Shown: in pieces, positions 3,471 to 58,274 of the stretch
How positions within the stretch are numbered: position 1 is the stretch's first letter
Layout of the letters: each line of letters opens with the position of its first letter
NCBI RefSeq assembly: GCF_018310535.1
Contig: NZ_CP074102.1
Coordinates: 2,232,001-2,296,000 of the forward strand
Length of the DNA: 64,000 nt
Direction: 5' to 3'
Origin: Streptomyces mirabilis
GTDB lineage: Bacteria; Actinomycetota; Actinomycetes; Streptomycetales; Streptomycetaceae
Translations under genes and position numbers: made by a program
Notes under the pieces: generated by a model
What the model was told of the DNA's origin: nothing
The model's input: the letters and a program-made list of their open reading frames with translations, nothing else
Databases searched by the model: none

Positions 3471-3514
3471 CTCCCCCAAGCTCTCGACTCCGCTCGAGCA
3501 GGGGGAACCCCCAT
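3471..3514 (+). repeat. dispersed Streptomyces palindromic repeat, copy 1
   Basis: This CTCCCCCAAG ... CTCGAGCAGGGGG ... CCCCCAT element of about 44 bp lies directly after the rpmB stop. Related copies are at 23087-23129 (opposite strand, inside gltX) and 58112-58154. Its CCCCC/GGGGG and TCGA/TCGA arms could fold into a hairpin. Confidence 0.8.
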
Positions 3515-21634: not shown

Positions 21635-23143
21635 CTACAGCTTCGCCAGCGCCGCGTCGATGCGGGCCAGGGTCTTCTCCTTGCCCAGGATCTGCAGCGA
21701 CTCGAAGAGCGGCAGGCCCACCGTGCGGCCGGTGACGGCGACGCGGACCGGGGCCTGGGCCTTGCCGAGCTTGAGGCCGTGCTCCTCACCGGCGGCCAGG
21801 ACGGCCTCCTTGAGGGACTCCGGGGAGGACCAGTCGGCGGCGTCCAGCTTCTCGCGGGCCGTGCGGAGCAGGGCGTCGCTGCCCTCCTTCATGGCCTTCG
21901 TCCAGGAGGCCTCGTCGACGGCCGGCTCCGGCAGGAACAGGAAGTCGACGTTGTCCGTGATCTCGGAGAGCACCTTCATCCGCGACTGGGCGTGCGGGGC
22001 GATCGCCTGCCACTTCGCCTCGTCGAAGTCCTCCGGCGCCCAGGGGGCGAACGGGGCCCGCAGCCAGGGGGCGCAGCGCTCGGTGAAGTCCTTCACGTCG
22101 AGCAGGCGGATGTGGTCGGCGTTGATCGCCTCGCACTTCTTCAGGTCGAAGCGGGCCGGGTTCGGGTTCACGTCCGTGACGTCGAAGGCGGCGACCATCT
22201 CGTCGATGGAGAAGATGTCGCGGTCCGCCGAGAGCGACCAGCCGAGCAGGGAGAGGTAGTTCAGCAGGCCCTCGGGGAGGAAACCGCGCTCCCTGTAGAG
22301 GTTGAGCGAGGACTCCGGGTCGCGCTTGGAGAGCTTCTTGTTGCCGTCGCCCATCACGTACGGGAGGTGGCCGAAGGCGGGGGTCTCCTTGGCGATGCCC
22401 AGCTCGGTCAGCGCCTTGTAGAGGGCGATCTGCCGCGGGGTGGAGGAGAGCAGGTCCTCGCCGCGCAGGACGTGGGTGATCTCCATCAGGGCGTCGTCCA
22501 CCGGGTTGACCAGGGTGTACAGCGGCGCGCCGTTGGCACGGACGATGCCGTAGTCCGGGACGTTCTCCGGGAGGTACGTGATCTCGCCGCGGACCAGGTC
22601 GTCGAAGGTGATCGCCTCGTCGGGCATCCGGAAGCGGACGATGGGCGTGCGGCCCTCGGCCACGTAGGCGGCCTTCTGCTCGTCGGTGAGGTCGCGGCAG
22701 TGGCCGTCGTAGCCGGAGGGCTTGCCGGCGGCACGGGCGGCCTCGCGGCGGGCGTCCAGCTCCTCGGTGGAGCAGTAGCAGTGGTACGCGTGGCCGGCGT
22801 CCAGCAGCTTCTGGGCGACATCCTTGTAGATGTCCATGCGCTGCGACTGGCGGTACGGCGCGTGCGGGCCGCCGACCTCGGGGCCCTCGTCCCAGTCGAA
22901 GCCCAGCCAGCGCATCGAGTCGAGCAGCTGGTTGTACGACTCCTCGGAGTCGCGGGCCGCGTCGGTGTCCTCGATGCGGAAGACCAGGGTGCCTTCGTTG
23001 TGCCGGGCGAACGCCCAGTTGAACAGGGCGGTGCGGACCAGGCCCACGTGGGGGTTGCCGGTCGGGGACGGACAGAAACGTACGCGTGGGGGCACCCCCT
23101 GTCCGAGCGGAGTCGAGGACTTGGGGGAGTTCGCGTTAGCCAC
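21635..23143 (-). CDS. gltX: glutamyl-tRNA synthetase
   Basis: GltX charges tRNA-Glu, and in actinomycetes also tRNA-Gln before transamidation. The 502-residue class I enzyme has the HIGH-like motif [12 protein letters not shown] (about 24-35) and the KMSKS-like motif KKLSKRD (about 269-275). The N-terminus is unusual: residues 5-19 ([15 protein letters not shown]) are encoded by a dispersed intergenic repeat (23087-23129), so the enzyme carries an added head or the real start is downstream, for example GTG Val17. It overlaps the upstream FAH-family gene by 8 bp. The tRNA-Glu/Gln array lies about 1 kb downstream. Confidence 0.95.
23087..23129 (-). repeat. dispersed palindromic repeat, copy 2, inside gltX
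   Basis: On the minus strand this reads CTCCCCCAAG ... TCGACTCCGCTCG ... CAGGGGG ... CCCCCA, the same element as at 3471-3514 and 58112-58154. Here it is translated in frame as part of the gltX N-terminus. Confidence 0.8.
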
Positions 23144-23924
23144 GCTTGATCACCTTGTTGGTGAGAGTGCCGATGCCTTCGATGGTGACGGCGACCTCGT
23201 CGCCGACGTTCAGGGGGCCGACCCCAGCCGGGGTGCCGGTGAGGATCACGTCGCCGGGGAGCAGCGTCATGGCCTCGGTGATGTTGACGATCAGGTCCTC
23301 GACGGAGTGGATCATCTCGCTGGTGCGGCCGAGCTGGCGCTGCGCGCCGTTGACCGTGCACTGGATCGTGATGCCCTCGGCGATCGAGGCGAGGTCAAGG
23401 TCCGTCTCCACCCAGGGGCCGAGCGGGCAGGAGTTGTCGAATCCCTTGGCCCGGGCCCACTGCTTCTCGCGCTTCTGGACGTCACGCGCGGTGACGTCGT
23501 TGGCGCAGGTGTAACCGAGGATGACGTCCTTGACGCGCTCGCGCGGAACCTCGCGGCACATGCGGCCGATGACCACGGCGAGCTCGGCCTCGTGGTGCAG
23601 CTCGCTGGAGAAGGAGGGGTACTGGATGTCGTCGCCGGGGCCGATCACCGAGGTCGACGGCTTGAAGAAGGCGAACGGGGCGTCGGGCACCTCGTTGCCG
23701 AGCTCCTTCGCGTGCTCCGCGTAGTTGCGGCCGAAGGCCACGACCTTGTTCGGGAGCACCGGCGGCAGCAGCCGCACCTTGCTCAGCGGGACCTTCGTAC
23801 CGGAGAGCTCGAAGTCCGCGAACGGAATGCCCTTGATGATGTCGAGGACGAGTTCGTCCGGCTTGTCGCCCTCGACCGCGCCGAAAGCGACGTTGCCGTC
23901 GATGGAGAACCTGGCGATGCGCAC
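23136..23924 (-). CDS. fumarylacetoacetate hydrolase-family protein
   Basis: The 262-residue protein has the FAH-fold signatures [16 protein letters not shown], the metal-binding [12 protein letters not shown] (Glu pair) and [15 protein letters not shown], and the C-terminal [21 protein letters not shown] enzymes hydrolyse or decarboxylate beta-diketones such as fumarylpyruvate or oxaloacetate; the substrate here is not assignable. The stop overlaps the gltX start by 8 bp, so the pair is likely cotranscribed. Confidence 0.92.
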
Positions 23925-58072: not shown

Positions 58073-58090
58073 CAGAGCTCGCCCTCTTTC

Positions 58091-58219
58091 CTCGCCCCCG
58101 CCGCCCCTACCCTCCCCCAAGCTCTCGGCTTCGCTCGAGCAGGGGGGACCCCCATCATCCCCAGGGGCTCCGCCCCTTCAACCCCGCCAGGGGCGCGGGG
58201 AACTGCGCGACCAGCCCCC
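58091..58219 (+). repeat. composite intergenic repeat, right copy, with embedded palindrome
   Basis: This carries the same three blocks as 52698-52857 (58091-58109, 58159-58176, 58187-58219) in the same order and orientation. Between the first two it contains copy 3 of the dispersed palindrome (58112-58154) also seen at 3471-3514 and 23087-23129. Confidence 0.8.
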
Positions 58220-58274
58220 GCCCACCCGCAGACAAACGAATCGGGTGGGCGGGGAGCTGAGCGGGCGCGGTCGG

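Follow-up and report, generated by a model that had tools for sequence, protein, structure and literature searches.

The glutamyl-tRNA synthetase (GluRS) gene gltX in a 64,000-nucleotide stretch of Streptomyces mirabilis DNA, here called the window, carries close to its start a 43-nt palindromic element, the mobility of which is shown, from genome comparisons, by pairs of filled and empty sites at six loci beyond gltX and by copies nested within other copies. Very probably it is a non-autonomous mobile mini-element of Streptomyces, which replaces about 4 nt with 43 nt, typically adds 13 translated codons and is tolerated in the N-terminal tail of GluRS. The gltX copy has the look of an insertion into a favoured place, where it is tolerated. 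If this is true, in-frame palindromic insertions, best known from Rickettsia, extend to large, free-living soil bacteria used to produce antibiotics, through an element whose small size and, in most cases, suitable length let it add whole codons.

The element, its copies and its hairpin

The features of the window are listed in Table 1. An earlier note on this DNA had placed a palindromic repeat in codons 5-19 of gltX and had named two further copies; reading the ORF on the minus strand confirmed the former, with CTCCCCCAAGTCCTCGACTCCGCTCGGACAGGGGGTGCCCCCA running from the last base of codon 5 through codon 19, and both other copies were recovered. The core pattern has three exact matches in the window (0.00 expected from 100 shuffles), and a search for all copies in the genome gave 33 matches at no more than 3 mismatches (19 + 14), the reversed control pattern giving 0.

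Table 1. Features of the window that bear on the element (positions are those of the window)
Feature	Position	Strand	Remarks
gltX, glutamyl-tRNA synthetase ORF	21635..23143	-	502 aa
gltX GTG start	23141..23143	-	overlaps stop codon of upstream ORF (GTGGCTAA)
43-nt palindromic element in gltX	23087..23129	-	reads CTCCCCCAAGTCCTCGACTCCGCTCGGACAGGGGGTGCCCCCA, 14 residues (6-19)
Hairpin core of gltX element	23095..23127	-	outer stem CCCCC/GGGGG, inner stem GTCC/GGAC
GTG codon 17, alternative start of the earlier note	23093..23095	-	absent from most filled heads
Upstream ORF, 3' end within gltX start	23136..23924	-	presumably fumarylacetoacetate hydrolase-like family
Element copy	3471..3513	+	between rpmB (name from the earlier note) and a terminator-like hairpin with T run
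Element copy	58112..58154	+	inside longer repeat, GCCGCCCCTACC..element..ATCATCC..GGGGCTCCGCCCC, window 58080-58230

The consensus reads C + T-CCCCC-AAG-stem-loop-CAGGGGG-N2-CCCCC-A-(T), and the conserved stretch, which begins at the C that precedes T and ends at the A that follows the second run of C, measures 43-44 nt by conservation profile. From T to A, 41 short copies measured 42 nt in 27 cases, 41 in 3 and 43 in 3, with 8 unparsed. In a covariation test limited to positions that the search pattern did not fix, and ignoring the kinship of copies, positions 9-26 pair in 44 of 48 distinct non-gltX cores (as CG, TA, GC or TG; shuffle mean 32.5, maximum 39) and positions 10-25 in 47 of 48 (TA, AT, CG, GC or TG; shuffle mean 40.6, maximum 45). 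The remaining stem pairs are nearly invariant and hence uninformative on covariation. Two stem pairs thus covary in the copies compared, which indicates that the hairpin matters. Against the two other window copies, the gltX copy shows paired stem changes from GCTC/GAGC to GTCC/GGAC, so the hairpin is kept there; it is alone among the 33 copies of its genome in having these arms.

The consensus contains a stop codon in none of its six frames, and 52/60 copies are likewise open, the share being 32% among dinucleotide shuffles and 36% among genomic 45-mers. Since about a third of such sequences are open by chance, this openness is no evidence of selection, and it was rejected as a selected property. 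An intrinsic terminator was also rejected, no T run following any of the three window copies. Rfam gave no match to the element at the 5 loci searched, the only two matches being at chance level and off the element. Flanks like those of the longer repeat around the copy at 58112 accompany 13 of 54 non-gltX copies. Elsewhere (L065:775-1000) an element lies within a larger repeat that has GGGCCTGTCCGGCG at one end and the inverse of it at the other, and the flank of L025 is similar to that of this copy.

Filled and empty sites, nested copies and host genes

Six further loci of the S. mirabilis genome were compared with relatives by anchors and alignments. At a beta-galactosidase gene (14 relatives) the filled site is longer by 39 nt in 7 by anchors and by 39, 39, 42 and 33 nt in the alignment of 4 relatives without anchors. 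For an LLM-type gene the gain is 39 nt against all 5 empty relatives out of 6, the sixth being filled; the same holds for a glycosyltransferase gene by alignment (one empty relative by anchors). For the gene of locus L021, with 8 rows from 7 genomes, every row gives +39 by alignment, and anchors show this gain in 5 of them. Upstream of prfA (8 relatives) the gain is 39 nt in 2 anchored empties, while 4 relatives have longer element variants by anchors and 2 are without anchors. The site downstream of rpmB, holding the window copy at 3471, is empty in close relatives: among 15 relatives, the gain is 39 nt against the nearest (G370), 40 in 9 and 38, 45 and 36 in three, with one relative filled and one without anchors. 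Alignments were used for glycosyltransferase rows L203, L204 and L206 and for L021 rows L223-L225, where anchor positions were wrong; anchors were absent from L178, L180, L182, L184, L200, L205, L231 and L235. Two side observations concern these loci. Three relatives (L172, L179, L181) have a 52-58-nt sequence at the beta-galactosidase site, compared with 16 nt in others, which may be decayed copies of an older insertion. The prfA leader (L229-L236), carrying element variants in several relatives and empty in others, is a second repeatedly used site.

The bases lost on insertion, read by eye against the nearest empty relative in element orientation, are GTCA, GTGA, GCCA, GCTA and ATTC, with GTC(C) and GGC(T) at gltX and GCTC at a nested site. 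These eight tallied sites are preceded by C in 8/8, and the first lost base is G in 7/8; the glycosyltransferase site was left out of the tally because its relatives disagree (CCGA, TCTG, GCTG and others). The nested site (L247) holds one copy within another: at C|GCTC|GAGC in the outer element, 43 nt of the inner one have taken the place of GCTC, for a net +39, and both elements keep the frame of an FtsK-like ORF. A sister element that shares the ends but has a different stem (CTCCCCCAGTGCC...; CTCCCCCAGTGC..CCTGGG..CCCCC) occurs in L230, L222, L212 and L262; in the first two it is nested at the same spot of the main element, with 36 nt for 4 and a net +32, which would break a frame. A gain of 39 nt is thus typical and not universal, given the other lengths at rpmB and beta-galactosidase and the T-to-A lengths of 41-43 nt. 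Because 43 nt for about 4 usually nets 13 codons, genes stay open. That the element can move, as the earlier note held, is borne out by the filled and empty pairs and the nested copies.

Copies inside other genes were sought among 60 loci, half of them from the S. mirabilis genome (30 of its 33 copies) and half from seven relatives that had been picked because their gltX is filled (30 of 67 copies); gltX itself accounts for six of the 60. A strict test of codon GC places 16/60 within coding frames on both sides. The test passes over gltX and L030, which are too near gene starts, and L021, which is below threshold; these were seen in frame separately. Hosts include the PheT beta chain (in relatives), a dGTPase-like HD protein, an ABC ATPase, a chorismate-binding/amidotransferase protein, a GntP permease, a PfkB kinase and an FtsK-like ATPase. 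Counting gltX, L021 and L030, all six frames occur: SPKLS..LEQG, LPQALGFARAGGTP, PPSSRLRSSRG, SPLLERSRELGG, VPPGRAESRAWG and APCSSEAESLGE. From these open frames we infer that the inserts are translated. The PheT and dGTPase hosts are distant from their solved homologues and differ from them at the site by more than 13 residues. In a plasmid of S. sp. NBC_01361 the element lies inside the annotated CDS of a transposase, which we take to be TnpB-like.

We propose that the mini-element, in Streptomyces and near relatives, would insert just after a C, mostly as C^GNNN, replacing about 4 bp with about 43 nt for a typical gain of 39 nt, or 13 codons. As its consensus has no stop, a genic insertion would usually leave the gene open and the extra residues would be translated. 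At gltX it would have replaced a valine (or glycine) codon shortly before a 10-residue strand, in a tolerant N-terminal tail, with translation from the GTG that overlaps the upstream stop running through the element; the resulting head would have little or no effect on the enzyme. Movement would depend on an enzyme supplied in trans, presumably recognising the hairpin and the C-rich ends. A wider reading, to which we give slightly less than even credence, is that mobile hairpins of about 36-43 nt form a family moved by a target-replacement reaction to which we know no counterpart: the DNA would be cut after C, mostly at C^GNNN, 4 bp would be discarded and a hairpin whose ends are C-rich inserted (43 for 4 in the main subfamily, with 13 codons gained in a typical event; +32 in the sister subfamily). 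It would return repeatedly to favoured sites such as the gltX head and the prfA leader, and would carry 13-residue inserts, in six frames, into Streptomyces proteins that include essential ones.

The gltX head across Streptomyces

The genus set comprised 392 genomes, S. mirabilis included, with a GluRS match in 388. By exact pattern the gltX head is filled in 21/392. Direct reading of 90 heads (L031-L060 and L111-L170), a sample biased towards filled because it holds mostly the best-scoring GluRS matches, gave 27 filled and 63 empty; the exact pattern had missed 8 of these 27, which brings the filled heads to at least 29/392. Occupancy is patchy. The repeat is confined to some strains, as the earlier note had supposed, and with 63 of 90 heads empty there is no single head common to all Streptomyces. 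A scan of a named genome collection returned 45 loci, namely 44 in named Streptomyces, S. griseus NCTC13033 among them, and one chance archaeal match. The synthetase gene does carry the repeat as an in-frame stretch, the frame being kept in 43 of the 44 Streptomyces copies; the exception is S. sp. WAC08241, whose head is 4 nt short. Two out-of-frame heads, G375/L098 (assembly 55% complete; head as in WAC08241) and G082/L153 (94% complete), were also seen.

Ahead of RVRF, empty heads read VANANV, VASAPGSPV, VASAPV or similar. Filled heads of forms A, B and D have 14 codons in place of the valine codon; in form C it is an upstream glycine codon that has given way, and the native SPV still follows the element. 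These two insertion points require at least two events, and allele exchange between species may explain some of the others. On a gltX-body tree of 130 rows, the filled and empty states need 25 changes, at least 10 of them forced by strong branches. If 33 copies fell at random over 9.6 Mb, a given ten-base stretch would be hit in about 3 of 100,000 genomes. An occupancy of 7% at the gltX head would therefore imply a favoured target, retention or spread by exchange.

The strongest alternative, a real possibility to which we nevertheless incline less, is a single old insertion at the gltX head that was spread and lost by homologous exchange of gltX alleles. The GTCC/GGAC arms common to all form-B heads agree with it, as do the relatives, in which 6 of 67 copies have these arms and 5 of those 6 are in gltX; the highly conserved flanking DNA would also make exchange easy. 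It is opposed by the two insertion points, by the 25 changes with their forced minimum, and by the conflict of the forms with the gltX-body tree, which rejects form C as one clade (p-AU 0.0012) and form B marginally (p 0.043). Such conflict could arise from exchange itself, and repeated insertion and exchange may both act.

Variation within the head bears on what, if anything, is being kept. In filled genomes the first ten codons of the GluRS core have diversities of 0.00, 0.00 and 0.32 at codon positions 1, 2 and 3, compared with 0.152, 0.158 and 0.134 in the 14 element codons, or 0.167, 0.163 and 0.135 in a recount that adds four filled heads beginning GTGGTT (L041, L112, L115, L153). The head thus varies alike at all three positions, and no selection on the peptide is visible; either selection at the DNA or RNA level or young age would explain the pattern. 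The most variable sites of the head are those that also vary in non-gltX copies. Taken with the patchy occupancy, this even variation, mainly at sites variable in non-coding copies, does not sustain the description of the element as domesticated. Pairs of filled species differ in this respect: L034/L036 and L031/L032 have identical heads although their gltX bodies diverge by 18-19% at third positions, and in L086/L095 and L045/L116 the change in the head exceeds that in the body.

A nucleic-acid role, in which the hairpin is retained for translation from the overlapping GTG or for an mRNA fold and the peptide is irrelevant, is in our judgement unlikely. It would fit the variation of the gltX element at non-coding-like positions with third codon positions kept, the compensating arm changes (GTCC/GGAC for GCTC/GAGC), the identity of the 42-nt window head with that of G109 although gene-body third positions differ by 18%, and the finding that the gltX copy is the sole copy at no more than 1 mismatch in G109, G160 and G376. 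However, such likeness of sequence would also be expected after a recent arrival or an exchange of alleles, and 63/90 heads do without the element. The inner stem is broken in several filled heads, positions 9-26 being paired in 22 and 10-25 in 26 of 31 distinct heads, compared with 24 and 27 of 28 outside gltX, and the predicted RNA fold of the gltX start region is no better than that of shuffles (z -0.88). GluRS was modelled with AlphaFold from 36 close sequences; the model is poor (mean pLDDT 69.7), with residues 1-20 unstructured at 28-34; as the catalytic start is also low, the model weakly suggests a loose N-terminal tail.

The filled heads also bear on the start site: 51 of 58 distinct ones lack any further start codon (ATG, GTG or TTG) after the first GTG and ahead of the HVG motif. 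The remainder have GTG17 (4 heads, that of the window included) or GTG19 (1) or are out of frame (2). With an internal start absent from so many, the overlapping GTG is the likely start, and judged by these reading frames translation should begin there and run through the element. The earlier note had offered Val17 as one possibility for the true start, and the same 51 heads speak against it. That the element really lies in a leader, with the synthetase starting inside or after it, is therefore very improbable: the window's gltX does have a GTG at codon 17, but 51 of the 58 filled heads lack a start codon there, the frame is kept in 43/44 named copies, and other copies sit deep inside conserved genes. 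Removal of the insert from the message, or its skipping by the ribosome on the model of the mobile bypassing elements of yeast mitochondria, is barely credible, since a short GC-rich hairpin in many genes would suit it but nearly every gltX copy preserves the frame and stops are absent, neither of which bypassing would need.

A separate observation concerns the last 20 codons of the ORF upstream of gltX (23139-23198, minus strand), whose third positions are nearly invariant across the genus, with a diversity of 0.01-0.07 compared with 0.12-0.31 farther upstream. This suggests a second nucleotide-level role just before the gltX start, for example a promoter or leader.

Known systems, mobilisation and occurrence

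REP sequences are short imperfect hairpins present in tens of copies and moved by RAYT transposases. The Streptomyces element resembles them in form and number, and differs in that no Y1 transposase gene of its own genome is flanked by copies. To judge by their descriptions, the closest known kind is the Rickettsia palindromic elements. According to two sources (PMC2229807, PMC10969869), these are dispersed, both in intergenic DNA and, in frame, within conserved protein genes, one has been shown to be translated into a working enzyme, and they have terminal inverted repeats and a size of 105-146 bp, or about 150 in the second review (PMC10969869). The Streptomyces element is likewise a palindromic repeat in frame inside protein genes; unlike them it measures 43 nt by empty sites (43-44 by profile), outside 105-150 bp, and consists of a hairpin and a C-rich tail, with the target replaced and all six frames used.

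Bacterial MITEs (Correia/NEMIS, ERIC, RUP, YPAL), as described in PMC2229807, are small, about 100-200 bp, and without a transposase gene; some have filled and empty sites or ORF fusions, and a table there gives target duplications in NEMIS, ERIC, RUP and YPAL. The mobility of the Streptomyces element is similarly seen from filled and empty sites. In contrast to MITEs, it has no terminal inverted repeats, since the first CCCCC pairs with a GGGGG inside the element and the CCCCC runs at its two ends point the same way, and it makes no target-site duplication, empty sites showing about 4 bp lost. No description of the element was found in the literature covered, subscription papers lying outside it; the available portions of PMC2267715 and PMC1590033 name no Streptomyces repeat, and 'coelicolor' or 'Streptomyces' appears there only in a reference of the latter.

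Filled and empty alleles of one essential gene in dozens of species would offer a natural series on the accommodation of mobile DNA by protein tails, and the near-constant exchange of 43 nt for 4 points to an insertion reaction open to biochemical search. In annotation, lineage-specific inserts such as LPQALGFARAGGTP or SPLLERSRELGG would be expected in Streptomyces proteins.

No mobilising enzyme was found; the S. mirabilis genome has six Y1 transposase matches, none flanked by copies. A link to an IS200/IS605-like transposase was rejected, as the copy at 8382344, which has a Y1 match 1.2 kb away, is contained in a larger inverted repeat. Carriage by phage was also rejected, with no match in 50,697 phage records. 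Among 72,556 plasmid records 25 match the element, all from Streptomyces. In a family sample, cores at no more than 2 mismatches occur in 7/61 genomes and 3/17 genera, with 0 to 33 copies. In one genome (G095), 9/10 copies belong to the subfamily CCCCCGAG. Five contigs of G095 (C5, C9, C19, C27 and C30) begin within about 20 bases of an element copy, and the repeat seems to break assemblies.
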